Both the position numbers and the translations under genes were made by a program. Below are positions 46,601-63,633 of a stretch of 64,000 bases of DNA, one piece after another; position 1 is the stretch's first letter; every line of letters starts with the position of its first letter. The stretch covers positions 1 to 64,000 of the forward strand of contig JANRJG010000003.1 of the NCBI GenBank assembly GCA_033875315.1, written 5' to 3'. Under the pieces are notes generated by a model. That model had not been told where the DNA came from. It was given only the letters and a program-made list of their open reading frames with translations, and did not search any database. This DNA comes from Candidatus Methylacidiphilales bacterium (lineage in GTDB: Bacteria > Verrucomicrobiota > Verrucomicrobiia > Methylacidiphilales > CAZTYG01).

Positions 46601-47363
46601 CGGCGGCATACCGCAGCCGTCCCATAAAGCTGAAGTTGCTGAAGTTGATGGTTGAAACACTCTGGAGGGCGGCGGCGTTGCCGAGGATGAGGCTGACAGC
46701 GGTGCTGCTGCTGCCACCATAGCTGATGTTGCCGCTCAAGGTGTTGGCAGCATTGAAATAGGTCAGGCCGGTGTTGTTGAGGTTGAGACCGGTGATGGCA
46801 GGGCCGGTGTTGTTGTTCAACCCGCCGTTGAAATAGGTGTTGCCCGAACCTGCGAGGGTGAGGGACTTGGAGGCGTTGCCGGAGTTGGCCGAGACCGCGC
46901 TGTTGAAGACGAGGTTGCCGTTGTTGGTGATGGTGGTGGGGTTGGCACTGAATTCCACCTTCGCGCCGGAGCCGACAGCGCCGAAGGTCACGATCCCGGC
47001 ACCCGCAGTGATGGTGATGTTGGAACCAGAGCCGGCGAGCGAAATGACCTGATCGGCCGGGCTGGTGCTGTTTCCCCCGAGGAGGGTGGTCGCCCCGGTG
47101 CCGCTGAAGGTGAAGCCAAGGAGAGAACGGTTGCCCCCGAGGAAGACGCTGGCGTCGTTGGCGTTGGTGAAGGTGGCGCTATCGCCGGAGCCAGGGACCG
47201 GAGTGGCACTCCAGTTCACCGTGTCGGTCCAGAGACCCGAACCACCGCTCCACGTGGCATTGGCCGCGTGCGATTGGTTGCTCCAGAGTGTGGCGAGACC
47301 GGCCAAAAGGAGGGCCGAAGGCTGGAGGTAAGAATTGAGGCGGGCGATGGAACGCTTTAACAT
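43686..47363 (-). CDS. PEP-CTERM surface protein with autotransporter-type beta-strand repeats (1)
   Basis: A 1225-residue protein from ATG 47363; its leader contains LLLAGLATLWSNQSHA. The mature part is a low-complexity, Gly/Ser/Thr/Asn-rich solenoid with many passenger-associated transport (PATR-like) units such as GTWTLRGANTFSGST, GTLTINGTSTYGGATSITGG and GTMTLSGTNGYTGSTSVNGG. The region around 1010-1060 ends in the phrase IDPGNSPGIM. The tail is a textbook PEP-CTERM sorting signal: VPEPSTG, a hydrophobic helix (LLLGIGLAGLIAL), then RRKARIQG. PEP-CTERM proteins are processed by exosortase, usually for display in the envelope or an exopolysaccharide matrix; no exosortase gene is in the window. 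It is expected to bind glycans or build surface layers rather than catalyse; that role is inference. A strong terminator follows. Confidence 0.85.
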   Translation of the reverse strand: MLKRSIARLNSYLQPSALLLAGLATLWSNQSHAANATWSGGSGLWTDTVNWSATPVPGSGDSATFTNANDASVFLGGNRSLLGFTFSGTGATTLLGGNSTSPADQVISLAGSGSNITITAGAGIVTFGAVGSGAKVEFSANPTTITNNGNLVFNSAVSANSGNASKSLTLAGSGNTYFNGGLNNNTGPAITGLNLNNTGLTYFNAANTLSGNISYGGSSSTAVSLILGNAAALQSVSTINFSNFSFMGRLRYAAGGSMTYSGIAPVLSLNGNSASPTLDLSLDGFDQQFSSALLNQKAQLVVSTTGGPAKVSVTGATTFGVNNGAQSAVLNPLGSASLSMNGVSTLAGDATFRTQTLVLGGSSTGSEITGTMAGGTNSTMSLNKAGSGTWTLRGANTFSGSTATTSVSGGRLVLDYGTSNNNSKLADDATLSLLGGTLDLSGGNHTEAVLNTTVNTGGSQVTRSSGNSTIALGTITFTGGSLNVGADNIATTNTGNTNGRLGTGAARATVGGTTWAKNDGSTNIVGLADGDYTATVTSGGGNSTMYSHTGNLTTSSTTLGSLRIRTNGVGQTMIINGGTGMILGNGTVSGSGGLLFTGADDYTIQVNASNIRSASGPLIFQTWGSGTLTINGTATNLLGSNIEKYGTGRLVLRGTNGSTSGTATLIAGGTLSINSNGSLGSNSTTGVAVTLNGGTLEADTTGGSFALNSAGANHRNITIGLAGGALDVIGGNNFTVSGNISSTTTGTGNTYSAPLTLGSASTNGTFTLNGTNTYTGGTILRGGTVEVQSAAAFGNTTAASNNFVQFTGGSLRFGSGVTTDYSQRIRYSNSTVSLDTNGNNVTFANGIDYTNTAGLSKSGGGTLTINGTSTYGGATSITGGTLALGSAGSLTSTTALTNNAAFDVSAINGPSTTIGSLAGNGTTNLGAKNLIVGGNNGSTTFSGAINGTGGSLTKNGTGTMTLSGTNGYTGSTSVNGGTLLISSTGSINSTSGITVNAGGTFRYNSSTALAAGLTNNGGSIAGSGNLGSLVLAGNGSIDPGNSPGIMTAAGTNPTGGLDYNFEFTAAGAPDWSNASASVNDVLRLTGATPFTADLGAANAVNVYLAVSSLSPGLTFQGGFFTDNDLTFLANIQNGSYNFFVLGDGSGANSYNGTSYYTLAQYNALVSGSYTVNLSTVAVSTANFAGGTVDGFVSQFNVVPEPSTGLLLGIGLAGLIALRRKARIQG

Positions 47364-47599
47364 AGTTTTATCCGGTAGGTGGTCGTAAATTTGTAGCCTG
47401 AGTAACAATCGAATGCAATACCAGTCCTTAGTTTGCAACAAATTACGTGCAATTTAATGGTATTAATGGCATGTCTCTTCGCCATCGCGAGGTCATTGAG
47501 GTGAGTTCCACCTCCTCCCCCAATCTTTGACGTGAAGTGCTGAAGTTGGTGCGGTGGCATTGCCGCCATCGAACCTGTTGGCCATTTCGAAATCCGACC
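47364..47599 (-). promoter_or_regulatory. Leader of PEP-CTERM gene 1 with TGCAA repeats
   Basis: A 236-base gap between two PEP-CTERM genes. The half next to the downstream gene is AT-rich and contains three TGCAA copies beginning at 47414, 47434 and 47448, so the first two are 20 bases apart, or two helical turns. They resemble the TTGCA/TGCAA elements found before the enzyme cluster. The half next to the upstream gene has a weak hairpin (GGTGGC-ATT-GCCGCC around 47563) without a T run. No gene is seen here. Confidence 0.35.
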
Positions 47600-50500
47600 T
47601 CAAAGAGGACGCGCCGAGCGGCGGCGTAGGACCATGAGTGCCGCAAGACCGATACCGAGAAGGGCGTAGGTGGAGGGCTCGGGAATGGCGGTGTAGCTCA
47701 GCACGAGATCATTTCCGCTTTGTGCCACGGCCCATGTGCCGCTTTCCAGATTGGTGAAGCCAGCGGTGTCGATGGTCCAGAAGGAACTGTTGAAACCGGT
47801 GATACCGCCGGTGGTGCTCAGGATGGTCCAGCTCTGGTTGACTTCCGAGAAGTTCGGGGCCAATCCGGCCAGGTTGCCCGCGGTCAGCGAAAGCACATTG
47901 AGTTCATAAACACCCGTCGAGGCCCCGGTCAGGGTCAGGCTGCCGTTGATGGCGACCCGGTCGTAGTCCGTTCCGGCAGTCGTGCCAATGAAGTTGTTGG
48001 TTTCCCAATCGTAGGTGTAGGAGGACCAGTTCTGGCCGGCTCCCAAATTCAATGTTCCCGGGCTGTTGCCAGGGGAAAGCACGTCGCTGAGGCTGTTGAG
48101 GGCCAGATCGCTGTTGATCGTGCCCGTGCCGGCGATGGTGCCCCCATTGAGCGTGACGGGGGCCGTGACCGCGATGGACGAGTTGTTGCGGAAGGTGCCA
48201 CCGGCATTGATGACCACTCCCGAGGTGCCACTCAGGTTGCCGGTGGAGGCCAAGAGGAGCGTGCCACCGTTGACCGTGGTGGCGCCGGTGTGGTTGATGT
48301 TTCCCGACAGAGAGAGGGTTCCGTTGCCCGTTTTGCTGAGCGCACGTCCCGTGCCGCTGATGCCCCCGTTGACCGCCAGGGTGTTGGCGGCATTGGCCAC
48401 ATTCACGTTGAGGTTGCTGTTGAGGGTCAGGGGCACGGCGATGGTGTTGGTGTTGCCCGAGGCACTGGTGTCGCTGAGGGTGGCCGCGGCGTTGTTGCCG
48501 GTGTTGTCCAAAATCAGGGCCCCACTGCCGCCGTTGGCAATGGTGTAGTTGTGACCGGCCACGGCGCTGGCAAACTGGACGCCCTGGATGTTGCGCGTGG
48601 CACTCAAGTTGACGGTGTTGGCCCCGACGCCCGTGCCCGCCCCATCGGCAAATTGCGCGATGGCCCCAGAGGCCTGTGTGGAGGGGCTGGCGGTGGAACC
48701 CGCATCGAAGACCGTCCAAGATCCCGCAGAGGCCGCATCCCAACTGCTGTCACTGGCTGCGTTGTAGGTGTTGGTGGATTCGTAACCGCCCACAGAGGCG
48801 CGGTAGGAACCGACATTCGTCAATCCACCCACGTTGGCGGTGGACCCGGTGTTGTTGACGGCGACCAGCATCGAAGATAGACCATCGGCCAAGACCACGC
48901 GGGTATTTCCACCAGAAGCCACCTGGCCATTGGTGAATGAGCCCGTGACGCCACTGGCACTGCCGGTCACGATGTTGTAAAGCGTGGTCGTATCGGAGGG
49001 AGGAGTGTAACCATTGTTCAAGGTCAGGGCCAGACGTCCACCCAGAGTGGTGGCTCCGGAGACCGAGACGTTGTCATATCTATTGGTGGAGGTTTCATGG
49101 TAGGAACTGGCGGCGGTGGTTCCACCGATGCCCAAGGCCAGGGTGCCGCTGTTGATCTGGTAGCCACCGGTGATGGCGGTGCGTCCGGAGTAGAGGGTGC
49201 CCTGGTAAGTATCCCCGGGGGCCATGACCGTGGTCGCTCCGTCCTGCACCAGCGTATTGTTGCTGCCGCTGCTGAGGAGATTCCCCCCCAAGTAGGAGCC
49301 GGCCGTGAGCGTGCCACCGGTCCAATTGAAATTGGAAGTGCCGTTGGTGGTGGTGTTGTTGCCCGCTCCGGAGACGGCCCCGAAGACGCGCAGCGTGCCA
49401 CCTGAGAGGTTGTAGGAGGAAGTATGACCCTGGATCACGGTGCTGTTCCCGGCCCCGATGGCCAATCCGGAGTTGATGTTGTTCGCGGCCACCAGATTGT
49501 TATCGGGTGCTCCGATGTTCACCTGCCCGCCTGTCTGGTTGAACGTGGCGTTACCAGTTGATGAGGCGGTGCCTCCCCCCAGCGCGAGTGCCGACAAACT
49601 GCCGCTGTTGGTGTTGGGGGTGGCGATGAAGGTGCCCCCATTGACATTGATGACGAAGTTGTTGACCCCGTTGTTTTCCATGTTCATGGAGGTGCCGTTG
49701 ATCTTGAAGCTGCCGGAATTGAGGGTCAGATTGCCGCCCCCGCTGCCGAAGTAACGACCACCGGCCAGCGTAACATCGGCACCGTTGATGATTTGATTGC
49801 CGACGACATTGGCGGCGTTGCTGGTGGCATTGAAAAAGAACTTCCCGCTGTTGTAGTTGACGGTCGAGGTGCCATTGAAACCCGTCCAAGCCGAGTTGAA
49901 GTTGTAGATACCAGCGCCCGAGAGGTTGAGCGTACCGCCGGCTGAGGCACTGAGGGTGGCGAAGTTGTTGACCCCGGAGGCCAGGTTGACGGTGGCGTTG
50001 CCCGTGCTGTCAAGGGTGATGGATCCCATCCCGCTGGCGCTACCCACCGTGGCACCGAGGGTGAACGTGTCGTTGCGATTGAGAGAAAGACGGCCGTTCT
50101 GCAGATTGAGGGTTCCGAGGACGTTGCCCGTGGCATCGTTGTTACCAACGCGGAGGACGTTGCTGAGACCACCGGAGCCGCCATTGACGAGGACCGTGGC
50201 GCCGGAGCTTCCGATGCTGGCTCCCGAGGCACCGCCGACGAGAACAACGTGCGTGCCCGTGCTGGCATTGGTGCCGCCACCGATGGTGGTGTTGCCCGTG
50301 TAGCTGTTGGCACCGGTGAGGTAAAGGGTATTGCTGTTGGTTCCGCTGTTGAGCAGGACCAAGCCGGTGACTCCCCCATTGTCGACAATGTTCGAGGCGA
50401 TCGTGCTGTGTCCAAGTTGATTGCGGTTGTTGTTGTTGACGATGATGAGATCGCCCCCGCCGGAGGGGCCGGTCAGATTGCCGCCGCTGATCTGGGAGTT

Positions 50501-52030
50501 GTTGGCGCCGACAGTCGACGTGAAGAGAATCCCGTCATTGACGGCCAACGTGCCGGTGATGGTGACATTCTGGTTCGAGGCATTGGCAAAACGGAGCGAA
50601 TTGATGGTGGCATTGCCAACCGTGCCGGTGACCGCAGCGCCGGTGGTGTAGTTGGCCGTGGGACTGGTCCAGAGGGTTGAATTGTTTTGCGTGGTGTAAG
50701 TGGTGGCAACCAAATTGGAGCCGTTGTTGGTGGCGAAATCGTTGCCGATGACCACACCCTTGACCAATCCACCCGCATCGTTGGCGGTGCCGGTGGCCTT
50801 GTAGGAAAAGCCACCCACCGTGGTGATGGAAAGAAGTGCTCCGGGGTCACGTGTGATGGAGGCGAAGTCGATGGTGTTTGTTCCCGATCCTGCAGCGGCC
50901 CGGAATTCGGAAACCCCCGGTTTGAGCGTGGTGCTGGCAAAGGTTTGGGAACTCGTGAGGCTGGAGTTGCCACGGAAATAAAGCGAACCGCCGCCGAGTA
51001 TGAGATCGGAGGAAGAATCGATGAGGTTGGTGAAGTTCCCAGTATGCAGGCTACCATCGACAAAGAGCAGGCCGGCGTTGATCGTGGTGTCGCCTTTGTA
51101 GGTTTGCTTTTGACCTGCGGCAAATGCCATGGTGAGTTGGCCCAGACCGGTTTTGGTCAGACCCGCGGTATTGCTGCCCCCAGAGTTACCAAGAACAGTG
51201 CTCCAGGTTTGGCTGTTGCCCGCCGTGTCCACTGTGAACGTGGCCCCATCATTGATGGTGATGCGGGAGGACGGATCGGACAAACCCGCAGCCGTCACGA
51301 GCGTGGCGTTACCACCGATGGTGATGACTCCCGCGGTGCCAAGAGCGGTGGCGTTGTTGACCACGAGCGTACCGGCATTGAGGGTGGTGCCTCCCGTGTA
51401 GGTGTTGGCATTGTTCAAAACCCATGTGCCCGAACCATTCTTGACCACTGAAAGGGTGGAGACCGTGGCGTTTTGAGATATGACACCGGTCAGAATATTC
51501 CCATACTGGGCGCGGAAGCCACTGTTGGTCCCGTCCAAGTTGAGCGTGACCGCCCCGGTGTTATCGCGGGTGTTGAGACGGTTGACGATGATTCCAGAAC
51601 CGAAGACCCCGCTGGAATTAAGTGTGACGGTACCGTTGAGGGATAGCGCCTGGTCCCCGCCGCCGGTGCCGATGCCAAAGCTGGCAATCCCCCGGTAGGT
51701 GGAATCCAGTTCGATGGAAGACCCGTTGTTCAAGATAACCCCCAACGCGCCGGGTTGAATGGCATAGCTATTAGTCACATTTGTGGTGCTGCTGAAAAGG
51801 AATCCACCGGATGGCGTGCCCGTGGTCACCGAAACGAACTGGTCACCCGTCGTGTTGAACACCGCCACATCAGCCCCTCCGGGAGCCACCCCACCGACCC
51901 AGTTGGAACCGGTGGTGAAAGCGTTGTTGGTGTAATTGCCTGACGAAAAGGTGATGTTGGCCGCATGCCCCATCGCACAGATCCACGAAAAAGAAGCAAA
52001 GGCGGCGAATAACTTGATGGTGTTTTTCAT
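47600..52030 (-). CDS. PEP-CTERM surface protein with autotransporter-type beta-strand repeats (2)
   Basis: A 1476-residue protein from ATG 52030 (signal peptide MKNTIKLFAAFASFSWICAMGHA). Repeated beta-strand units of the PATR type are dense, for example GTWVLNNANTYTGGTTLNAG, LYLTGANSYTGNTTIGGG and GTLSLSGNINHTGATTVNGG. The C-terminal region carries GTLLLASTGNLSGTSGVVINAGGTF and LSPGNSPGTL, shared with the other two PEP-CTERM proteins of the locus. A ~150-residue terminal globular part then leads to AIPEPSTYALLGIGLAALMVLRRR, the exosortase sorting signal. It is probably displayed on the surface or in the matrix. It is the longest of the three, and its repeats have clearly diverged from those of its neighbours rather than being recent tandem copies. 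Its 497-base upstream gap suggests its own promoter. Confidence 0.85.
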   Translation of the reverse strand: MKNTIKLFAAFASFSWICAMGHAANITFSSGNYTNNAFTTGSNWVGGVAPGGADVAVFNTTGDQFVSVTTGTPSGGFLFSSTTNVTNSYAIQPGALGVILNNGSSIELDSTYRGIASFGIGTGGGDQALSLNGTVTLNSSGVFGSGIIVNRLNTRDNTGAVTLNLDGTNSGFRAQYGNILTGVISQNATVSTLSVVKNGSGTWVLNNANTYTGGTTLNAGTLVVNNATALGTAGVITIGGNATLVTAAGLSDPSSRITINDGATFTVDTAGNSQTWSTVLGNSGGSNTAGLTKTGLGQLTMAFAAGQKQTYKGDTTINAGLLFVDGSLHTGNFTNLIDSSSDLILGGGSLYFRGNSSLTSSQTFASTTLKPGVSEFRAAAGSGTNTIDFASITRDPGALLSITTVGGFSYKATGTANDAGGLVKGVVIGNDFATNNGSNLVATTYTTQNNSTLWTSPTANYTTGAAVTGTVGNATINSLRFANASNQNVTITGTLAVNDGILFTSTVGANNSQISGGNLTGPSGGGDLIIVNNNNRNQLGHSTIASNIVDNGGVTGLVLLNSGTNSNTLYLTGANSYTGNTTIGGGTNASTGTHVVLVGGASGASIGSSGATVLVNGGSGGLSNVLRVGNNDATGNVLGTLNLQNGRLSLNRNDTFTLGATVGSASGMGSITLDSTGNATVNLASGVNNFATLSASAGGTLNLSGAGIYNFNSAWTGFNGTSTVNYNSGKFFFNATSNAANVVGNQIINGADVTLAGGRYFGSGGGNLTLNSGSFKINGTSMNMENNGVNNFVINVNGGTFIATPNTNSGSLSALALGGGTASSTGNATFNQTGGQVNIGAPDNNLVAANNINSGLAIGAGNSTVIQGHTSSYNLSGGTLRVFGAVSGAGNNTTTNGTSNFNWTGGTLTAGSYLGGNLLSSGSNNTLVQDGATTVMAPGDTYQGTLYSGRTAITGGYQINSGTLALGIGGTTAASSYHETSTNRYDNVSVSGATTLGGRLALTLNNGYTPPSDTTTLYNIVTGSASGVTGSFTNGQVASGGNTRVVLADGLSSMLVAVNNTGSTANVGGLTNVGSYRASVGGYESTNTYNAASDSSWDAASAGSWTVFDAGSTASPSTQASGAIAQFADGAGTGVGANTVNLSATRNIQGVQFASAVAGHNYTIANGGSGALILDNTGNNAAATLSDTSASGNTNTIAVPLTLNSNLNVNVANAANTLAVNGGISGTGRALSKTGNGTLSLSGNINHTGATTVNGGTLLLASTGNLSGTSGVVINAGGTFRNNSSIAVTAPVTLNGGTIAGTGTINSDLALNSLSDVLSPGNSPGTLNLGAGQNWSSYTYDWETNNFIGTTAGTDYDRVAINGSLTLTGASTGVYELNVLSLTAGNLAGLAPNFSEVNQSWTILSTTGGITGFNSSFWTIDTAGFTNLESGTWAVAQSGNDLVLSYTAIPEPSTYALLGIGLAALMVLRRRSARPL

Positions 52031-52269
52031 GATTAGACCCCAGTTTTGTAATCGCAGTAAGTACAATCAACGCATTTACTGCCTAGGAGATAGCTTAGTT
52101 CTGTATCCATTTCTTTAGCAATCTATTTTTAGTATTAAAATGCAATATTTTGGCACGCCAGAATCATTCGCAGCATTGTTGGAGGATTGCTGAAAGTTTG
52201 AGCGCGATACGGAATCCGCACAAAAACCCACTTGGCACTGCATCCATGCTTTATCCACGAGCCACTTGA

Positions 52270-52527: not shown

Positions 52528-54357
52528 CTAGGAGCGATGCTTGCGGCGCAAGGCGATCAGGCCTGCCAGACCAAGGCCCAGAAGGGCGAAGGTGGAGGGT
52601 TCGGGGATGGCGGTGTAATTGATGTAAAGCTTGTCCAGATTCCCGATACCACCCTGGGTGACCGAAAAGGTTCCGGTGGTGGAGTTCAAGAAACTGTCGG
52701 AAAAGACAAACTTGTCCGCACTGAAGCCGGTGATATCCGCCGCCGCATCGACAAAGAGCCATTGGTAGGAGTTTGTATCGACAAAGTTCTGGGCCAAACC
52801 AGCGGCCTGGAGCGCATCCAAACTGACGATTTCGATGGTGAACTGGCCGGTGCCCGCAGTGATGTTGAGGCTGGCGGCGTTGAGCAAGTCCCAACCCGCG
52901 GTGGTCGAGCCGGCGGCACCGGTGGCATCATTGACTTCAAACTGGAAAGTACCCGCATTGGCCCAGGTGACGGCCCCCGTGGTCATGTTGCCCGTGCTGT
53001 TGCCGGGGGCGAGGGATTGGTTGGCACCGATGGAGAGGGCGACACCGGCCAGGTTGGATCCGGCGACGGTACCGGAGTTGAAAGTCAGGGTGCCGGTGAA
53101 GTTGGATGCCGAGTTGTAGGCAAAACGGCCGCCCGAGACGGTGACATTGCGTGAAAGCGCGGTCGAGCTGTCGTAACGGAAGGTCCCGCTCGTGTTGACG
53201 GTGATGTTGGAGGTGCTGTTGATGGAACCGGTGCCACTGACCAAGAGGGTCCCACCGTTGACGTTGGTCATGCCCCCGTAGGTGCCCGTCGTGTCCGAGG
53301 TGTTGCTGTTGCTACCGGAAATGATCAGCGTACCGATACCGTTCTTGTTCAGCGTCGTGCGCTGTCCAGCATTCGTATTGTCTTTGAGTTGCTCGTTGCC
53401 GGAAAGGGTGATGTTCCCGGAACCTCCAAAGCTGTAGGCCGAGTCTGCAGTTCCGGTGCCTTGGTTGTTCAGAATGTTGCCTGTGAGCGTGAGTGTGGAA
53501 TCCGCGTTCGTGTTGCGGATTTCCGAGCCGGTGGTGCGCCGGTCGAAATTGAATGTGCGATTGGAGGTGGCATTTCCACCTGAGTATTCGAAAAATCCGT
53601 TGTCACCCACGGTCCCCCCACCCATGGTGATGGCCGTGTTGGTGCCGCCGTCGCCGAAACTGCTGGCGTCTCCGAAATTGCCCAGGGACGAACCGATGGC
53701 GCGACCCTTGATGATTTGGAAGTTGTCCGTCTGACTGGCGTTGCCGAGGTTCACGACAGTGGTAGCCGAGTTGATGACCACTTGGGCCGTATTCAGATTG
53801 ACGTTGTTGGTCAGATCCACCGTACCGGCCCGGGTGATATCAAGCCGACCGGCGCCGGTGATGTTCAGGAAGAATCCATTGTCCGTGATGGACGGGGCGT
53901 TCAAAACGAGGTTGCCCGTCCCAGTTCCGCTTGAGGCATTAATCGTCCAAGTTTGGTTGGCTCCCAGAGCAAACGTATTGCTGAACGTCAATGCGGAGGT
54001 GTTGGCCGCCTTGGTCACGCCACCGGCACCAATCGTGATCACCCCATTGCCTCCGGAGATGTTGAACGCCCGGGCTGCCCCGCTTACGGGAGCAGCATTC
54101 ATGGTGATTCCCAAGACGGATATGTCCGCAGCTACTCCCGCGGTGATGCTGGTTGCGGTCAGGGTATTGTCAATGATGATCGTGTCACTGGCCGTAGGTG
54201 CCACGCCACCCACATAACTTGCACCAAAATTCAGAGAAGTGGTGTTGTTTCCCTTTGTGACAGTTTGCGCAGAGACCGTCTCCAGCATCGCGTAGGCGAA
54301 AAAAAGCAACAAGCACGGCATCACAAGACGGGCTGAGAAAAGAATGGCGGTCTTCAT
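52528..54357 (-). CDS. PEP-CTERM surface protein with autotransporter-type repeats (3)
   Basis: A 609-residue protein with an export signal (ARLVMPCLLLFFAYAMLETVSA) and a terminal sorting signal AIPEPSTFALLGLGLAGLIALRRKHRS. The middle is a beta-strand solenoid with PATR-like units (ITLSGNEQLKDN, GTLIISGSNSNTSDTTGTYG, GGTLLVSGTGSINSTSNI) and the LAPGNSTGNM phrase corresponding to the DPGNSPG motif of its neighbours. Its opening (TVTKGNNTTSLNFGASYVGGVAPTASDTI) resembles the mature start of the 2218-residue enzyme (TTYTKADNTAPLDQAASWNPASLPTSADNI), hinting at a shared surface architecture. It is transcribed divergently from the LacI regulator gene across a 103-base AT-rich spacer, so the two could be co-regulated. 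The function is structural or adhesive by inference. Confidence 0.85.
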   Translation of the reverse strand: MKTAILFSARLVMPCLLLFFAYAMLETVSAQTVTKGNNTTSLNFGASYVGGVAPTASDTIIIDNTLTATSITAGVAADISVLGITMNAAPVSGAARAFNISGGNGVITIGAGGVTKAANTSALTFSNTFALGANQTWTINASSGTGTGNLVLNAPSITDNGFFLNITGAGRLDITRAGTVDLTNNVNLNTAQVVINSATTVVNLGNASQTDNFQIIKGRAIGSSLGNFGDASSFGDGGTNTAITMGGGTVGDNGFFEYSGGNATSNRTFNFDRRTTGSEIRNTNADSTLTLTGNILNNQGTGTADSAYSFGGSGNITLSGNEQLKDNTNAGQRTTLNKNGIGTLIISGSNSNTSDTTGTYGGMTNVNGGTLLVSGTGSINSTSNITVNTSGTFRYDSSTALSRNVTVSGGRFAYNSASNFTGTLTFNSGTVAGSNLAGVALSIGANQSLAPGNSTGNMTTGAVTWANAGTFQFEVNDATGAAGSTTAGWDLLNAASLNITAGTGQFTIEIVSLDALQAAGLAQNFVDTNSYQWLFVDAAADITGFSADKFVFSDSFLNSTTGTFSVTQGGIGNLDKLYINYTAIPEPSTFALLGLGLAGLIALRRKHRS

Positions 54358-54460: not shown

Positions 54461-55525
54461 ATGCCCCGCACCGCCTCCCCACGTCCCAACCTTTCCATGA
54501 TGGCCCGCAGGCTGGGGGTCTCCGTGCCCACAGTCTGGCGGGCCATGCGCAACGCTCCAGGCATTCACCCCGAAACACGTGCCCGGGCCCTTCAACTCGC
54601 GGCGGAACTGGGCTACGAAAGTCCCGCCCGGGCCGACGGGGTGGCATTGAAAAGCCGGGACCACTTGGTTCTGGCCCTGACCCATTTGATGTCCTCCAAC
54701 CCGGCACAGGATTTTATCACCGGGATGAACCGGGCCTCCTTGAGCTACAACCTCAACATCCTCACCCACCAAGTGGAGGCGGGCGCGTGCAGCCAATTGC
54801 TTGATCCGTCCTTCCAACCCAAAGCCATGCGCTCGGGTCTGGTGGACGGTTTGGTGTTGATCCACCGCTGGCCTGCCGAAGTGGCCCGGCACCTCGCGGA
54901 AAAATGGCCCGCCGTATCCATCGTGCATCACTACCCCGGCGTTCCAATGGAACATGTGGGCATCGACGACCGCCAAGGCATGCTGGCCCTGGTCGAACAC
55001 CTGCACGCCGGAGGGCATCGTCAGATCGGTTTTTTTGGCTTCTGCCGTGAGATGAGCTGGGCCTGCAGTCGCCTCTCCGCTTGGTTTGAAGCCCTGGTCC
55101 TGTGCGACCTGCCCTACGAACCCCGCGATGTGATCCCAGTGGAGATCGACCTGGCCCTGGCCATGAACGAATTCCGGGTAGGCGAATGGGAAAAAAAAGT
55201 CCTGGAGCGGGTCCGCAAAGGAACCAATGCCTGGGTCTGCAGCAGCAGTGGCACGGCCAACACGCTCTGTCGCTTTCTGCTCGAAAAGGGATTCCACCTC
55301 CCTGCGGATGTGGCCGTTGCCGGATACCACCGTGGGAAGTTCAACATCTGGCCGGACCTACCGGATATCACCACCACGGAAGTATCGGATATCGACCTGG
55401 GGGCCACGGCCATCCGCCGACTGACCAACCGCATCATGCATGGCAACGAACCGACGCGTTCCATCCTCCTCCCCGCCGCCCTTCACTTGGGGCAGACGAC
55501 ACGGACGACCTCCAAAAAAGCGTGA
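54461..55525 (+). CDS. LacI-family transcriptional regulator
   Basis: A 354-residue protein with an N-terminal LacI-type helix-turn-helix (LSMMARRLGVSVPTVWRAMRN, then PGIHPETRARALQLAAELGY). A periplasmic-binding-protein-like sensor domain follows (HLVLALTHLMSSNPAQDFITGM, GLVLIHRWP, HVGIDDRQGMLALVEHL, GHRQIGFFGF, LPADVAVAGYH). The stretch joining the two domains is short and unlike the classic hinge helix. LacI-type regulators usually repress carbohydrate genes until a sugar binds; the inducer here is unknown. The gene is divergent from the PEP-CTERM gene and directly precedes an AraC-type regulator whose GTG start overlaps its stop (GTGA), so both should be made together. The candidate binding sites are the GTAAT triplet upstream or the TTGCA repeats elsewhere. 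Confidence 0.9.
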   Translation: MPRTASPRPNLSMMARRLGVSVPTVWRAMRNAPGIHPETRARALQLAAELGYESPARADGVALKSRDHLVLALTHLMSSNPAQDFITGMNRASLSYNLNILTHQVEAGACSQLLDPSFQPKAMRSGLVDGLVLIHRWPAEVARHLAEKWPAVSIVHHYPGVPMEHVGIDDRQGMLALVEHLHAGGHRQIGFFGFCREMSWACSRLSAWFEALVLCDLPYEPRDVIPVEIDLALAMNEFRVGEWEKKVLERVRKGTNAWVCSSSGTANTLCRFLLEKGFHLPADVAVAGYHRGKFNIWPDLPDITTTEVSDIDLGATAIRRLTNRIMHGNEPTRSILLPAALHLGQTTRTTSKKA

Positions 55526-57165
55526 AACCCCTGCTTCCCATTATTCAAGTAACCCAAGTGCTCTCAGCCAGACGGGGGGTGGTTTCGTCGCGCGAAGTCT
55601 GGGAAACCGACGGTGTTCCAGAGGATCTGCATTTCAGCCTCCTGATCGACACAGGGGCGGGATTGAAGTTTTCCCACGCCGGCCAAACTCTGCGCGCAGC
55701 ACGCGAAGGCTTATTCATGGTGCGCGACCATGGGGTGAAGGTGGTGTGCGAACCGGTAGGGCCACCCTTCCCCCGCTTTCTCACTGTGAGCGTCCGGTGT
55801 CAACCACCCAGGGCCGCCACATCGCTGGCCGGCGGGGGAATGCTTGAACTCGATGCGCCCGGGCGCCAGCGGGTTCAGGCTCTCATGGAGTGGATACTGG
55901 ACCTGATGCGAATCCGCAACCCCACGGACGCCAAAATGGCCCGGCGTGTGGCGGGACTGTTGCTGGACTTTCTCCTTTGCGGGGAGGCCTCGGCCGGTCT
56001 CCTGGGCCGTCCGTCCCCTCCACCGCTGCCACCAGTCATCACGCGGGCACTGATGTTGATGCATGCGCACGTGGACCGAACGGGGGGAAGGTCAAACAAT
56101 CTGCAACATCTGGCCCAGCGCGCCGGGGTCAGTCCCCGGACCCTGAGGCGAATCTTCCTGCAAACACTTGGCCTGAGACCCCGGGATTGCCTAGGCCGAA
56201 TCCGGGTGCGGCAGGCAGCCCAGATGATCCGCGATTCCGCCCGCAGCCTGGCAGATATCGCTGCCACCACGGGATTTTCCGACCAGGGGCATTTGGCCCG
56301 ACATTTCCGCAGCGCCTACGGCATGTCCCCTGCCGCCTTCCGTGCCAACCCCGCCATTGCCATCGACCGCATGCCCATCCCCGGCCTGACCGCTTTAGAG
56401 CCCAACACATTTGTACAATTTGGCATCCGGGATGTTGACCTGTCCGGCAGCACAACGGCGGCGGAGATGGAAAAGGGCCTCATGCAACTGCTTAAAAAGC
56501 AACAGGGTCCGCGCGTCACAGGCCAGTGGACTCCGCTGGAGCCGGGCCGCGCCCGCCGCGCCTGTCTGCGCACGCCCAACCGATGCTGGTTGAAGAGCGG
56601 CCTGCTGTGGGAAAACTTGCGCAGCGGCCGCCTAGATTTTTTCGGCGTCCCGTTCTGGCTCCCGGAAGAGACTCCCGAGCGTCCCTCTGCCGTGGTGTTT
56701 CCCAGCAATTCCGCTCCGGATGAAGTCTCCGTGGACGGGGTCGACATCGACCTCAAAGGAAAAAAATACACCCGCCTGGCCCTGCTCCATGCCTGCGCCT
56801 ATGCCGGCCTGGGCAGCGGCCCCGTGGCACGGATCGGACTACACCCAGCCAACGGCGGCAGGGTCTCGTTCGCGATTCATCTGGCTTCCGAAGGAACCCA
56901 GGCATCCCCCACCAGAAGCCGGCCCGAGGATCCCCTTCTCTCCGATTGGTGGCCCCTGTATCTTGGGCAGGCCAATGCCTCCTCCAAACCTGTCTTGATC
57001 GTGAATCCGGATTCTCCCCTTTTCAACATCCGCCGGGCCTTTCTTTGGGAATGGCAAAATCCACAGCCGAATGTGCCCCTCAAGAAAATGACCCTGCGCC
57101 CCTGCGGGATCTCTGGAGCCTGTTACGTCCTGTTGGCCCTTTCCGGACAAGTCGCCACTGTGTGA
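55522..57165 (+). CDS. AraC-family regulator with C-terminal beta-sandwich-like extension
   Basis: The frame is open far upstream inside the LacI gene, but coding character begins at GTG 55522, which overlaps the LacI stop; I take this as the start, giving 547 residues. Residues ~1-180 are a beta-rich sensor-like domain of AraC type (FSHAGQTLRAAREGLFMV). Residues ~190-278 are the AraC double helix-turn-helix (NLQHLAQRAGVSPRTLRRIF and SLADIAATTGFSDQGHLARHF, ending GMSPAAFR). About 265 further residues follow, unusual for AraC proteins. They read like the glycoside-hydrolase accessory sandwich with FFGVPFWL, IDLKGKKYTRLALLHACAY, LLSDWWPLYL and AFLWEWQNPQPN. This could sense a glycan or oligomer. 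It probably activates the locus together with the LacI protein; its targets are not proven. Confidence 0.82.
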   Translation: MKPLLPIIQVTQVLSARRGVVSSREVWETDGVPEDLHFSLLIDTGAGLKFSHAGQTLRAAREGLFMVRDHGVKVVCEPVGPPFPRFLTVSVRCQPPRAATSLAGGGMLELDAPGRQRVQALMEWILDLMRIRNPTDAKMARRVAGLLLDFLLCGEASAGLLGRPSPPPLPPVITRALMLMHAHVDRTGGRSNNLQHLAQRAGVSPRTLRRIFLQTLGLRPRDCLGRIRVRQAAQMIRDSARSLADIAATTGFSDQGHLARHFRSAYGMSPAAFRANPAIAIDRMPIPGLTALEPNTFVQFGIRDVDLSGSTTAAEMEKGLMQLLKKQQGPRVTGQWTPLEPGRARRACLRTPNRCWLKSGLLWENLRSGRLDFFGVPFWLPEETPERPSAVVFPSNSAPDEVSVDGVDIDLKGKKYTRLALLHACAYAGLGSGPVARIGLHPANGGRVSFAIHLASEGTQASPTRSRPEDPLLSDWWPLYLGQANASSKPVLIVNPDSPLFNIRRAFLWEWQNPQPNVPLKKMTLRPCGISGACYVLLALSGQVATV

Positions 57166-57549: not shown

Positions 57550-59046
57550 ATGAAAGATCCCGTCCGGGTTACGCCTCTCGTTTCGAGTTCCCCCGCCATT
57601 ACCCCGGAGTCCCCTGCTGCAGGCCCGGTCCTGAAAACTCCTGAACATTCCTCCGTTTCCAAACCCCTCACCTTGGGCGAAAAAATCGGGTACGGCTCTG
57701 GGGGCATCGCCTTTGTTCTGGCCTATTCGTTGCTGTCCCAGCTGGCCTTTCCGATCTTCAACATCTCTCTGGGTATGAACGCCACGTTGGTGGGTGTGGC
57801 CCTTGCCGTGGGTCGGTTCTGGGACGCCATCACCGACCCAGTAATGGGATGGTTCAGCGACAACGCACGGACGCCATGGGGACGACGCTGTCCATTTATC
57901 CTGCTGGGCGGATTGCTCTGCGCCCTCACCTTTCCGCTCTTCTGGTTTATCTCGCGCGGATGGCCGGAATGGGGCCAGTTCGCGTGGCTCACCGGCTGCA
58001 TCATCCTATACTACACATCCACCACGGTTTTCTGTGTGCCCTACCTTTCCCTGGGCTACGAATTGAATCCCGACCCGATCGAACGCACCCGTCTGCAGGC
58101 TTGGAGCACTTATTTCATTGCAGCGGTCTCGCTGGGCATGCCCTGGATTTATCGCGGTGCTCAATCGGAGGTTTTTCCCGACACCCTCACAGGGATGCGC
58201 TGGCTGGGAGTGCTCTGCGGGGTCGTGTTTTTCGCCTCCGCGCTTCCGGTCTTCCTGGGATGCCGCGAGCCACGCGATGCCTCCGCGCTCCAAGGCGAGA
58301 AATCCTCTTTCTGGAACGGGTTTGTGCTAACGCTGTCAAACCGGCCATTCGTTCTGCTGGTTCTTGGAGTCGTGACCACCATGCTGGCCGTGCCAACCTT
58401 GATCGGCTCGCTCGCCGTTTACATCAATACTTACTATATTTTCAATGGCGACACCAAGACCGGCGCTGCCTACGCGGCCGCGTTTACGACGCTTTATTAC
58501 ATCGTGAAATTCACCATCCTTCCCTTTTCAGTCAAACTGGTGGCGCGCTTCGGCAAGATACGGGTCATGCAAGGCGCCCTGTGGGTGGGCATTTTCGGCT
58601 CGATCAGCCAGTATTTTCTTTATACACCGGCCGCTCCTTGGTTGCAGTTTGTGACGGCGCTCTTCCTCTCCCCGGCCCTCACCTGCTTCTGGTTGCTCGT
58701 GAACCCGATGAAAGCCGACTGCACCGACTACGACGAATGGAAAACCGGGCAACGCCGCTCGGGCAGCTACGCGGCCGTGGCCAACTGGATGGAAAAGATG
58801 GCCATGAGCGTATTTCTGGTTTTTTCCGGGATGTTGCTCGACTGGAGCGGCTTTGATCCCGCATTGGGGGCGGCGCAGGCCGAACAAACCACGTGGATCT
58901 GGCGCATGGCCTTCGCAGGGGTGCCCGCAACCGGTTACGCCATCGCGTTGGTTTGTCTGCATTTTTATCCGCTGACCGATGAAAAAATGAGCGCCATCCG
59001 CGCCGATTTGGAAGCCCGCAACATCCTGCAGGAACAAGCACCTTGA
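57550..59046 (+). CDS. GPH-family sugar:cation symporter (MFS)
   Basis: A 498-residue inner-membrane transporter of the glycoside-pentoside-hexuronide:cation symporter family (MelB/XynB/UidB type). A ~40-residue hydrophilic N-terminus precedes LTLGEKIGYGSGGIAFVL, the typical first segment. Family marks follow: VGRFWDAITDPVMGWFSDNARTPWGRRCPFIL (the loop 2 motif with Asp and the R-PWGRR signature, shown here in part only as WDAITDP and GRRCPF) and FCVPYLSLGYELNPDPIERTR. About twelve hydrophobic helices can be counted. It would import oligosaccharides, uronides or pentosides produced by the secreted enzymes, for final cleavage by the GH43 and cytoplasmic SGNH enzymes. Its stop overlaps the TTG start of the next gene, so transport and lysis are co-expressed. 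Confidence 0.9.
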   Translation: MKDPVRVTPLVSSSPAITPESPAAGPVLKTPEHSSVSKPLTLGEKIGYGSGGIAFVLAYSLLSQLAFPIFNISLGMNATLVGVALAVGRFWDAITDPVMGWFSDNARTPWGRRCPFILLGGLLCALTFPLFWFISRGWPEWGQFAWLTGCIILYYTSTTVFCVPYLSLGYELNPDPIERTRLQAWSTYFIAAVSLGMPWIYRGAQSEVFPDTLTGMRWLGVLCGVVFFASALPVFLGCREPRDASALQGEKSSFWNGFVLTLSNRPFVLLVLGVVTTMLAVPTLIGSLAVYINTYYIFNGDTKTGAAYAAAFTTLYYIVKFTILPFSVKLVARFGKIRVMQGALWVGIFGSISQYFLYTPAAPWLQFVTALFLSPALTCFWLLVNPMKADCTDYDEWKTGQRRSGSYAAVANWMEKMAMSVFLVFSGMLLDWSGFDPALGAAQAEQTTWIWRMAFAGVPATGYAIALVCLHFYPLTDEKMSAIRADLEARNILQEQAP

Positions 59047-60941
59047 TCCCACGACACTTCCCCTTGGCTCTCATCTTCCTGCCTGCGCTAGCACTGGCCA
59101 GCAATCCCGTCGAATTCTTTGTGGCTCCTGAGGGCGGCAAAGACGGTGACGGGACCCGCCAACGGCCCTTCACCCGGTTGGAGACCGCGCGGGACGCCGC
59201 ACGGGCCGCAAACCAAGCGGGCAAGGGACCAGTGACCGTCCATTTCCTCGGCGGCACCTACCGGCTCCGGGAGACCCTCCATCTGGATGCCGGGGATTCC
59301 GGACGGGGCGGAGCACCCACCGTCTATCGTGCGGCGAAAGGGGTGCTTCCGGTGCTCAGCGGAGGGGAAGTGGTGACCGGCTGGCGTGTCACCGAAGCCA
59401 GCGCCGGCCTTTATGAAGCCACGGTCGGCCCTGCCCTTTTCCGCCAGGTCTACTTGGATGGCAAGCTTCTGACGCGGGCGCGCCACCCAAACGGAGGCTG
59501 GCACGGTCCCTTCTGGCGAATGACGGGAGCGGATATCAAGGGCCGACGATTGCACATCCAGCGCGACCTTTGGGACGAAGTGAAGGCCCTGGCGGGAAAG
59601 TCTGTGCTGGAGGTGGTCTGGAACGGCCATTGGACCCATTACCGCGGGAAAGTCGGGGCAGTGGAAAAGGCGGACGGGCACACGGCCATCGGAATCGATT
59701 CTCCCGACGAGGCCTCGTTTTTCGTGAAGCCGCTGGATTACTTCAAGAACGTCCCCTTCTATTTCGAGGGAGCCGCCACGTTCGTCGATGAAGTGGGAGA
59801 GTGGCATCACGACCCCGCAAGCGGAATCTTGCGCGTCCGCTTCGGTTCCGGGGTCGACCCTTCCTCGCATGTCGTCGAAGTGCCCCGCTTGGATGTGTTA
59901 CTCACCGTCGAAGGAACGCCGGACCAACCCGTGCGGCATCTGGAAATTCAAGGCCTTGGTTTTGAGACAAGCAATTGGACGCGTCCCAGCACCCGCTCGT
60001 TTCCTTCCACCCAGTTGGCCCAACCCTACGGCGGACCCCGTGACTACGAGGGCAGGGACTACCCCACCGGCATGATCCGCGTGCGCCATGCGGACGGTTT
60101 CGCAGTGAGAAAATGCCGCATCCGCAACGCTGGAGCGACCGGAATCCAATTCTGGCAGAATGTTTCCAACTCGGACATCGAGGGAAACGAAATCGGCCCG
60201 GTGATGGCCAATGGAATCGAAATCGATCCCGAGTCGCGCCCTTTGCGCTTCATGGAAGCCGAGGGCCCCGGCGATCACGAACGCCTGATCCGTGAACGCT
60301 GCACCAACAACGCCATTTGGAACAACCGCATCCGTGAATGCGGCCGCCAATACGTCAACGGTGGCGCCATCCTGGCCCACTTCGTCAGCAAACTGTTGGT
60401 CGACCACAACGAGATTTCCGACCTGCCTTATACGGCCATCCAAATCGGCAACCAACCCGGTGGCTACAAGGACTGGGGCTGCCATGAAAACCGGGTCCGA
60501 GGCAACCGCATCCAACGGGTCATGCAGTTGCTGGATGATGGCGGGGCCATTTATACCCTCGGTGGCCAGCAGCACGGAACAGTCATAGAAGAAAATTATA
60601 TCTCCGATCTGGTGCGCAACCCCTGGACGGGCAATGTCTGGCTCGCGGGCATCTACTTGGACAACTTCACCCAATTCGTGACTGTGCGGCGCAATGTCAT
60701 AGTCAATGCCCCCACTTTCTACGCGTCAATCAATGGCGCCAAAGACAATACCTTCATCGAAAATGAAGGCCTGACCATCCAAGACCAACAGAAGGACGGC
60801 TTACGCCCGGGGACACAGCGCGTGATCGGCTTTCGTCCCATGAAGGAAATCGAAGCGGTCAAAGATCAATCAGGGCCGCGACCCGGCTATGATCCCCGTG
60901 CGCCACGCAGCGGCGATTCCGGTAAAAAATCAATTCTTTGA
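59043..60941 (+). CDS. Secreted right-handed parallel beta-helix protein
   Basis: A 632-residue protein that must start at TTG 59043, inside the preceding stop (TTGA overlap), because this gives an immediate signal peptide (IPRHFPLALIFLPALALAS) and there is no suitable ATG nearby. The mature sequence begins EFFVAPEGGKDGDGTRQRPFTRLETARDAARAA, the same entry as the minus-strand 721-residue protein. Then GTYRLRETLHLDAGDSG, VDEVGEWHHDPASGILRV, and solenoid coils with NRIRECGRQYVNGGAI, NEISDLPYTAIQIG and NYISDLVRNPWTGNV follow. It is likely a polysaccharide lyase or hydrolase on a uronic-acid polymer; no catalytic residue assignment is possible. It belongs to a plus-strand unit with the symporter. 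Confidence 0.8.
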   Translation: MIPRHFPLALIFLPALALASNPVEFFVAPEGGKDGDGTRQRPFTRLETARDAARAANQAGKGPVTVHFLGGTYRLRETLHLDAGDSGRGGAPTVYRAAKGVLPVLSGGEVVTGWRVTEASAGLYEATVGPALFRQVYLDGKLLTRARHPNGGWHGPFWRMTGADIKGRRLHIQRDLWDEVKALAGKSVLEVVWNGHWTHYRGKVGAVEKADGHTAIGIDSPDEASFFVKPLDYFKNVPFYFEGAATFVDEVGEWHHDPASGILRVRFGSGVDPSSHVVEVPRLDVLLTVEGTPDQPVRHLEIQGLGFETSNWTRPSTRSFPSTQLAQPYGGPRDYEGRDYPTGMIRVRHADGFAVRKCRIRNAGATGIQFWQNVSNSDIEGNEIGPVMANGIEIDPESRPLRFMEAEGPGDHERLIRERCTNNAIWNNRIRECGRQYVNGGAILAHFVSKLLVDHNEISDLPYTAIQIGNQPGGYKDWGCHENRVRGNRIQRVMQLLDDGGAIYTLGGQQHGTVIEENYISDLVRNPWTGNVWLAGIYLDNFTQFVTVRRNVIVNAPTFYASINGAKDNTFIENEGLTIQDQQKDGLRPGTQRVIGFRPMKEIEAVKDQSGPRPGYDPRAPRSGDSGKKSIL

Positions 60942-60963
60942 CAACCTTACCGCATCCCGTTCT

Positions 60964-63633
60964 ATGTATACACACAAGCATCGGTTTCATCGCGAAGTGA
61001 TCCCGGCACTGGCCGTTTCGCTGGTCTTGTGTACTTCCGGATGCGACCGAGCCCATTCTCCCCCTCTCCCCTTCAAATCTGACAATCCTGTGACTGAATC
61101 GTCCCCAACCACCGCAACGAAACCTGACACACCACCTGTGGAAGCACCATGGAAACCGACCGCCATGCCGGACAACGGATTCGAACAGGCGGAGTCGTCT
61201 TGGGATTTTTCCGCCGCCGAGGGAACGGCCCGCATCGCACCCGAGGCCGCACGCTCGGGCACGAAAGGGCTGCGAATCGAGAGCCGGCACGATGACAAAA
61301 ATGCCTTCATTCTCGGACCCAAACTCCAAGTTGATCCGGAGTCGGCCTACCGGCTTACTTGGCAGGCGCGGGTCGTCTCTGGTGCGGGCACCAACATCTA
61401 CCTGCGCTTTCTGGGCCCAGATGGCGCCGAATTAAGCCGGGAAGAAGGCCGGATCGGCACCGGGAAACCCAGTGAGTGGAATCCGGGTTTCGTCAACGGG
61501 ATGCCCCCGATGCGCGCGGTCTCATTGCAAGTGCTGATCCAGCGACCAGGTTTTCGTAGCCCGAACTACGTGATTGATGTGGACGACCTCGAACTCCTGA
61601 AGAGGCCCATCGTGATCGCGGCACCCTGGCGGGCCACTTACAAACTACGTCCCGAGGATAAGAACCAGCTCACCGCAGCGGACGTGGTCGGACCGGACGG
61701 ACTGGTTTACCCGGATTTTACCTACGCCGGGCTTCCGGGCGGCATTCCCAAACTGCCGGTCGCTGCGCGGATGGCCGATCTCGGCGTGCGCGACGGCGAC
61801 AGCATCGCAGCCCTGTTGGAGCAGACGGCGGCGAGGGTCGCGGCTGAAGGTGGAGGCGCAATCGAACTGGGAGAAGGGACTTTCTATCTCGACGAACCGG
61901 TGATGGTTTTTGGAAACAAAGTGGCGATTCGTGGAGCCGGACGCGAGAAAACACGTTTGATCTTCCGCTACCATGTGCCCTACGGCAACGTGCGCTTTTT
62001 CCGGTTGAAAGAAGGCCAGCAAATCGACCAGGGCACGTCCATTGAATTTCACGCCAATCCGCGCGATCTGGTGGCGATGGAATTGAAAGCAGGAGACAAG
62101 AGCCTGTCCCGGAAAGTGCGGGCGGATCATTGGGGCAATACTTTTGCCCTTCGCATCAGCGGGAACCAAGTGCTCGGATTGCTCGGTGAAGGGGAACATG
62201 GGCTCACCGCCATCGCAGAATACCAAAACGGCGACCGAGCCGAGGCGACCATCCGACTTCGTCTAACCAAAGGATTCTCCGGTGAGCCCTCACCGGACCA
62301 ACTGGGGGCGATCAATTTTGTCGGCCGCGGCCAGGTCTCCAGTCCGAAACCGCTGGTAGCCGACGGGCGCCGTGGCGACCAGGTGATCCGATTGGCGGAC
62401 GGACATGGATTCAAGCCCGGCGACAAAATCAGCCTGGTGGCACCGGCCAGCGATCGATGGAAGAACCTGGTCGGACACCACTCCCACTGGAAAATTCAAG
62501 CGCAGAACCTGTACCAGATCGACTCGGTGACCGGAGGCAAACTGACGCTGAACCAGCCCCTGCGGGTGGAGTTTCTGGTTGAGGACGGCTCGTATGTGGT
62601 CAAATTCACCACACTCAACATGGGCGGGATCGAGAACCTGCACTTGGAGCAGATGGTGGTGCCCGGGCAGCCAGCACCCGGCCCGCGCATCGGGCATACC
62701 CTCTGGCACGCCATTGACGACCTGTGGACCACGGGCGTGAACACCCAGAACGTCTGGGGTTTTTGGATGCACGATGTGACCGTGCGCAACGTCGGGCGCA
62801 ACTCGGCCTACTTCCTGATGTCAAAGCACATCGAAGTGCGCAACTGTCTGTTTGACGAAGCGATTTTCAAGGGAGGGGGCGGCACCGGCTACATCGGTTT
62901 TGACCGCACCTGGGACAGCCTGATGGATACCGTGGAGGTGCGCGGCATGCGGCATGCGCCCAACCTCCAATGGAACTCATCCGGTAACGTGATCCGCAAC
63001 GGCCGCTTCCTCGGCAGCGACGGCCAGTGGCACGCGGGGTGGACACACGAGAACCTGCTTGAAAACAACTTCATCGATGCGCGGGGAGGCGACGGCAGTT
63101 ACGGACACGGTCTCTATGCATCGGGCCCTTGGAGTGGCATCCATGGCCCGCAGGGCCCACGCAATGTGGTTTACGGAAACGATGTCATGGCCCGCAAAGA
63201 CTGCCTGCACATGCTGGGAGGAAACGAAGCTTGGATGATCCTGCACAACCGCTTCGTCTCCGAAAACGGCCGCGCGGTCTATGCGCGGGAAAAAAGCTTC
63301 GATCATATCATACGCGGCAACGTTTTTGTGCTCCGCAAGGCGGTTAAACCGGCGGTCCTACTCGGTGCCGACAGCGTGGGTGTGGAACTCTTCCACAACA
63401 CTTTCTTTGGCGTGACAGCTCCATTGGTCGAATTTGCCGGTGGCCGCACCCATCTATTGCGCGACGAAGGCAACACGCTGGCATCGGACGTGCCCTCCAC
63501 CTTGCCTGACCGTCCGCAGCCGGCGGAGCCTTCTATTTTTCAGTGGCAGCGCGACCACGCCCCTGCCATCCGCGCGGCCGCTGCTACACGAATTTCCAAT
63601 CCCACTACAGAACAAAAACCCAATCCTAACTAA
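60964..63633 (+). CDS. Lipoprotein beta-helix enzyme with N-terminal CBM-like domain
   Basis: An 889-residue protein from ATG 60964. An upstream in-frame ATG at 60889 overlaps the previous gene, so the later start, which opens directly into the lipoprotein leader, is preferred. The leader ends in LVLCTSGC, a lipobox, followed by a Pro/Thr/Ser-rich tether. Residues ~65-215 resemble a CBM4_9-like sandwich (NGFEQAESSWDFSAAEGTAR, YVIDVDDLELL). From ~270 comes a pectate-lyase-type beta-helix: GDSIAALLEQTAARVAAEGGGAIELGEGTF (quoted in part: GGGAIELGEGTF), VAIRGAGREKTRLIF, and HIEVRNCLFDEAIF. It is probably an outer-surface polysaccharide lyase. The preceding beta-helix gene is 22 bases upstream and the next gene starts 2 bases after its stop. 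Confidence 0.8.
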   Translation: MYTHKHRFHREVIPALAVSLVLCTSGCDRAHSPPLPFKSDNPVTESSPTTATKPDTPPVEAPWKPTAMPDNGFEQAESSWDFSAAEGTARIAPEAARSGTKGLRIESRHDDKNAFILGPKLQVDPESAYRLTWQARVVSGAGTNIYLRFLGPDGAELSREEGRIGTGKPSEWNPGFVNGMPPMRAVSLQVLIQRPGFRSPNYVIDVDDLELLKRPIVIAAPWRATYKLRPEDKNQLTAADVVGPDGLVYPDFTYAGLPGGIPKLPVAARMADLGVRDGDSIAALLEQTAARVAAEGGGAIELGEGTFYLDEPVMVFGNKVAIRGAGREKTRLIFRYHVPYGNVRFFRLKEGQQIDQGTSIEFHANPRDLVAMELKAGDKSLSRKVRADHWGNTFALRISGNQVLGLLGEGEHGLTAIAEYQNGDRAEATIRLRLTKGFSGEPSPDQLGAINFVGRGQVSSPKPLVADGRRGDQVIRLADGHGFKPGDKISLVAPASDRWKNLVGHHSHWKIQAQNLYQIDSVTGGKLTLNQPLRVEFLVEDGSYVVKFTTLNMGGIENLHLEQMVVPGQPAPGPRIGHTLWHAIDDLWTTGVNTQNVWGFWMHDVTVRNVGRNSAYFLMSKHIEVRNCLFDEAIFKGGGGTGYIGFDRTWDSLMDTVEVRGMRHAPNLQWNSSGNVIRNGRFLGSDGQWHAGWTHENLLENNFIDARGGDGSYGHGLYASGPWSGIHGPQGPRNVVYGNDVMARKDCLHMLGGNEAWMILHNRFVSENGRAVYAREKSFDHIIRGNVFVLRKAVKPAVLLGADSVGVELFHNTFFGVTAPLVEFAGGRTHLLRDEGNTLASDVPSTLPDRPQPAEPSIFQWQRDHAPAIRAAAATRISNPTTEQKPNPN

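Follow-up and report, generated by a model that had tools for sequence, protein, structure and literature searches.

The AraC-type regulator P0001 continues, behind its double helix-turn-helix (HTH), into a predicted β-sandwich module whose homologues are found on exported glycosidases and β-helix enzymes and on two other kinds of regulator. It is encoded in the window, by which we mean the whole 64,000-nucleotide stretch of Candidatus Methylacidiphilales DNA analysed here. The most far-reaching interpretation, to which we give a probability of about 40%, is that AraC, GntR and LacI regulators, at least three HTH families in Verrucomicrobiota, took over an accessory module of exported polysaccharide-degrading proteins, giving one-component sensors that respond inside the cell to the same polymer fragments that the enzymes hold outside. 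The results below support a module of the glycosidase-accessory kind within cytoplasmic regulators, and a β sandwich as its modelled fold. Judged from homology and gene context, direct oligosaccharide sensing by the module is plausible, and the occurrence of the module on three regulator kinds across Verrucomicrobiota suggests, but does not prove, direct sensing of sugar chains.

The reading frame of P0001 (Table 1) was translated from 55522-57165 and runs through 547 residues without a stop. Its start codon, GTG, shares the bases GTGA (55522–55525) with the stop codon (TGA) of the upstream LacI gene, and such a 4-base start/stop overlap is an arrangement typical of translational coupling. The HTH_18 match exceeds the curated cut-off, and P0001 thus has the two HTHs of the AraC/XylS family. 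Beyond this match Pfam gave weak HTH-like matches only, with none in residues 276–547, and NCBIfam matches run through the HTH region only, which leaves the tail without a name. A transmembrane segment was looked for in P0001 and none was found. The initial annotation had described an AraC regulator with an extra domain behind the HTH, and this description holds: there is a single frame, an HTH_18 match and a tail with homologues elsewhere, and the segments quoted for it are present (IDLKGKKYTRLALLHACAY at residues 409–427, SDWWPLYL at 474–481 and FLWEWQNPQPN at 507–517). The extent of the domain has to be revised, since the predicted fold begins near residue 330 rather than at ~285, the intervening part of the tail being a linker with a predicted helix. 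A sequence break between HTH and tail, looked for as a possible refutation, was absent: the frame is open and codon-position G+C is continuous over the boundary.

Table 1. Coordinates of P0001, its parts, its neighbours in the window and related genes of the same genome
Feature	Position	Strand	Evidence or remark
AraC-type regulator with C-terminal β-sandwich module, 547 aa (P0001)	55522..57165	+	open-frame translation
N-terminal region of P0001, residues 1–190	55522..56091	+	aligned with cupin regions of L021 and L026
AraC double HTH of P0001, residues 197–275	56110..56346	+	Pfam HTH_18, E 1.1e-22
Linker of P0001, residues 276–329, one predicted helix (~313–326)	56347..56508	+	AlphaFold model, modest pLDDT
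Predicted β-sandwich module of P0001, residues ~330–547	56509..57162	+	sequence searches, profiles, AlphaFold model
LacI-family regulator, 354 aa	54461..55525	+	LacI HTH E 1e-6, Peripla_BP_3 sensor E 6e-15
GPH/MFS_2-type sugar symporter, likely in the regulated locus	57550..59046	+	MFS_2 E 7e-65
Right-handed β-helix protein	59043..60941	+	weak similarity to GH141 insertion domain
Second right-handed β-helix protein	60889..63633	+	weak CBM_4_9 similarity
PEP-CTERM protein, first of three adjacent	43689-47453	-	
PEP-CTERM protein, second of three	47600-52066	-	
PEP-CTERM protein, third of three	52528-54357	-	
Second AraC protein with module, 515 aa (G000:C9, contig 9)	L021:4117-5664	-	
AraC protein with best full HTH match in the genome (contig 18)	L022:2573-3775		
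GH2 protein with module, 1901 aa (contig 40)	L143:3425-9127	-	
GH2 protein with module, 1646 aa (contig 40)	L144:1307-6244	+	

With P0001 alone as query, no related loci were found. A module alignment restricted to regulators retrieved 28 loci; a profile built from P0001 and a second AraC protein of the same genome (L021) reached more relatives in the order, and its enlarged version reached the class and the phylum. The match of P0001 to the module profile (E 1e-70) is circular, P0001 itself being one row of the alignment. Evidence of membership independent of the profile comes from a single-sequence search, in which P0001 matched L021 with E 1e-12, and from the pairwise match to L105 given below. 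In the genome search, with either the whole of P0001 or its tail as query, residues 367–540 aligned to the tail of L021 at 30–31% identity (E 7e-12 to 1e-12).

The AraC fusion was seen four times (the window, L021, L026, which equals L095, and L105, which equals L145), each time with HTH_18. A search for it in other genomes, proposed in the initial annotation, was thus successful: L026/L095 and L105/L145 come from two genomes other than that of the window, L105 from another class of Verrucomicrobiota. L105 is colinear with P0001 from the HTH via the linker to the module over 371 residues, HTH included, with a pairwise E of 6e-30. Because the same AraC fusion occurs in a second gene of the window's genome and in two other genomes, chimeric assembly is excluded; that an assembly or gene-prediction artefact joined an AraC gene to an unrelated frame is refuted by these independent fusions as well as by the unbroken frame, and its probability is practically nil. 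All four AraC fusions adjoin carbohydrate genes: a GPH symporter and β-helix proteins in the window, GH38, GH2 and a ricin-lectin protein at L021, GH1 and MFS at L095 and GH28 at L145. The Pfam AraC_binding cupin is present in L021 and L026 and found no match in L105 or in the N-terminal region of P0001, residues 1–190 of which align weakly with the cupin-bearing regions of L021 and L026. The suggestion of two possible ligand-binding domains in one regulator is thus half supported. Elsewhere in the genome of the window, the AraC protein L022 seems, by reading, to have a PAS-like sensor at its N terminus and a normal HTH at its C terminus, and it adjoins MFS transporter and oxidoreductase genes.

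Many profile matches were proteins of 600–700 aa consisting of a GntR-HTH, Peripla_BP_3 and the module. Among the copies placed in the tree, 28 stand behind a GntR-HTH with a LacI-type sensor and one belongs to a LacI regulator (L057, LacI-HTH + Peripla_BP_3 + module). The GntR fusions are found in Opitutaceae (Rariglobus and others), Spartobacteria LR76, Puniceicoccaceae and other Verrucomicrobiota, and at 8 of 17 sampled loci GH78, GH94, GH38, GH31, GHL6, a SASA-esterase or a BNR/sortilin-type protein is encoded within 4 kb, a raw count in GH-rich genomes. At L089, L090, L092, L097 and L098, which form one group from Opitutaceae and relatives, a gene for a LacI regulator directly faces the GntR-sensor-module gene in convergent orientation, and at L089 a GH31 gene follows.

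The tail had been said to resemble a module of secreted glycosidases, and profile searches supported this by finding homologues on exported glycosidases and β-helix enzymes. Exported or enzymatic carriers include a GH20-like protein (L030), β-helix proteins (L054, L106 and, from Lentisphaerota, L099) and a GH5/39-like protein (L038). The genome of the window itself encodes two large divergent GH2 proteins with the module, ~3 kb apart on contig 40, one of them with a lipoprotein-type N-terminal signal; the second (L144) has a convergent LacI gene behind it. The module is also found on Ser/Thr kinases and pilin-like proteins, so that the host proteins alone do not imply sugar binding. In several genomes of the class it stands behind the Ser/Thr protein kinase domain (L069, L140).

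The family is marked by the motifs GVPF, LHxCGY, DWW and EWxNPxP, which in P0001 read GVPF (375–378), LHACAY (422–427), DWW (475–477) and EWQNPQP (510–516), and by the full-length profile P0001 is a member. Across 106 copies, Gly369, Phe378, His423, Asp475, Trp476, Trp511, Asn513, Pro514 and Pro516 (P0001 numbering) are common to most cytoplasmic and exported copies, and P0001 keeps them all. It has Arg346 in place of a nearly invariant Asn and Glu-Pro in place of the preceding Asp-Leu, in the part where the alignment is least sure. In a maximum-likelihood tree of 68 modules, the regulator copies (AraC, GntR, LacI) and the β-helix copies lie on the same side of a branch with UFBoot 82 / SH-aLRT 99, and GH20, other GH and kinase copies lie on the opposite side. 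The tree gives no firm order of the AraC, LacI, GntR and β-helix copies, and the window copy is its most divergent row (end branch 2.83). For these two reasons we do not state how many times regulators gained the module.

AlphaFold2, run with 27 aligned rows (the window and related loci), gave a model of pLDDT 78 and pTM 0.79; single-sequence AlphaFold of the tail was unusable (pLDDT 32). The model, which starts at residue 300, has a helix at model residues 14–27 (~313–326) and then twelve strands that form an all-β sandwich. In a Foldseek search of the PDB, AziU3/U2 alone reached E <0.001 (7wuw_A; E 1.2e-5, TM 0.53 for the query and 0.65 for the target, rmsd 5.1, 13% identity). AziU3/U2 of Streptomyces sahachiroi (PDB 7wuw) is an aziridine synthase according to a review (PMC12559475), and it differs from P0001 in its chemistry and in not being a regulator. 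The next matches were the N-terminal lectin domain of BC2L-C, CBM11, CBM16 and GH50 agarases (E 0.006–0.1, low TM-scores), which score like the unrelated β proteins around them. Given these weak lectin and CBM matches and AziU3/U2 as the sole significant one, the fold alone does not support glycan binding. Of the glycan-binding sandwich anticipated in the initial annotation, the all-β sandwich is what the model retains.

By sequence, no relatives of the module were found in Pfam, NCBIfam or PDB sequences (phmmer and profiles for the PDB), and 27 members gave no match to a Pfam CBM family at E ≤ 1. The module is like CBM11, CBM16 and the BC2L-C lectin in its predicted all-β sandwich, and in other proteins it is attached to glycoside hydrolases; it differs in that the fold similarity is weak and no Pfam CBM matches its sequence. 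It thus has the CBM-like character of a sandwich on carbohydrate-active enzymes (GH20-like, GH2 and β-helix) but lies outside the CBM families of Pfam.

AraC/XylS regulators typically, though not obligatorily, carry an N-terminal cupin-like domain for ligand binding or dimerisation. P0001 is like them in its double HTH and its position in a sugar locus, but its HTH lies mid-protein and is followed by a tail of ~270 residues. An HTH at the end of the protein is a fair rule for AraC regulators, with exceptions in Rob, an AraC-family protein whose effector domain lies behind the HTH (PMC8279559), and in the NCBIfam models AryK, Btr and Rsp. These three models match P0001 in or near the HTH and have hundreds of model positions following that HTH; on P0001, the Btr, AryK and RobA matches end at or near the HTH end, RobA covering residues 191–279 only. 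The C-terminal domain of Rob is GyrI-like and that of Btr is binding-protein-like, and a GyrI-like (Rob-type) domain was not found in the P0001 tail with Pfam or NCBIfam RobA. Rob, Btr, AryK and Rsp are like P0001 in having an effector-type domain after the AraC HTH, whereas the added domains of Rob and Btr have other folds and the predicted enzyme-accessory-like β sandwich of P0001 has no sequence similarity to the tails of any of the four. The GntR-HTH + Peripla_BP_3 combination is an AraR-like architecture, and known AraR-type proteins stop after the sensor. Many close copies of the module are on such regulators here, beyond the AraR-type end, whereas the HTH of P0001 is of the AraC type. 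Effector domains after the HTH are thus already known from AraC regulators; what differs here is the domain recruited and its joining to three HTH families. We found no description of a regulator-module fusion in Verrucomicrobiota in the open-licence literature, which is weak evidence of absence.

These observations lead us to propose that P0001 is an AraC-type regulator that acts in the cytoplasm on a carbohydrate-use locus, which would comprise the LacI regulator, the GPH symporter and the two β-helix proteins. The ligand of the module would be an oligosaccharide or sugar acid that the exported enzymes release and the cell imports, and its binding would alter the seating of the HTH on DNA or its contact with polymerase, so that the processed substrate would switch the locus on. 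P0001 may also cooperate with the LacI protein of the overlapping gene. A sugar or oligosaccharide as the ligand is our best guess, at even odds, because of the homology to enzyme accessory modules, the residues conserved in both settings and the gene context.

There are other possibilities for these observations. The module could be a dimerisation or structural domain without a ligand of its own, replacing or stabilising the N-terminal AraC arm, which is weakly recognisable; the LacI partner or a divergent cupin would then do the sensing. As neither P0001 nor L105 gave a cupin match, something else may hold the dimer; also, the GntR and LacI fusions already have a Peripla_BP_3 sensor, and a conserved Asn is missing from the window copy. 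However, L021 and L026 have both cupin and module, and the enzyme copies have the conserved polar and aromatic residues too, where dimerising of a regulator cannot explain them. We consider such a role unlikely.

Docking to another protein, such as the LacI protein of the overlapping gene, would fit the 4-base overlap, the LacI genes next to five related GntR fusions and the GntR-Peripla_BP_3-module single chains, which unite what the window has as two chains. No LacI gene lies next to L021, L095 or most GntR fusions, however, which makes docking quite improbable. Still further down in probability, and hardly credible, is an enzymatic activity that the module retains or formerly had: it is hinted at by the AziU3/U2 fold match (E and TM-scores above) and by the conserved His and Asp, but identity to AziU3/U2 is only 13% and the module is appended, in the style of an accessory module, to many proteins that have their own catalytic domains. 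A sugar or oligosaccharide ligand ranks ahead of all of these.

Verrucomicrobiota have large polysaccharide-degrading gene sets, and little is known of their control. With a module common to enzymes and three regulator kinds, the ligand of an enzyme copy would predict the signal of a regulator, and vice versa. The module has no Pfam or NCBIfam name though it is present in many genomes of the phylum, and its description would improve the annotation of both enzymes and regulators.

Some further candidates were considered around the window. All window ORFs were scanned for the module and it was absent from the β-helix neighbours, which were thus rejected as carriers. An origin of the LacI and AraC pair by fission of a LacI-sensor-module protein was also rejected, the window LacI being not specially close to L057. 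A check for a link to PEP-CTERM/PATR neighbours (the window, L074, L021 and two Rariglobus loci) showed that it does not hold generally. The last PEP-CTERM gene of the window is divergent from the LacI-AraC pair. Two of the three PEP-CTERM proteins have clear PATR (passenger-associated-transport) repeats, and PATR proteins also adjoin the GntR-module regulators L074 and L076.
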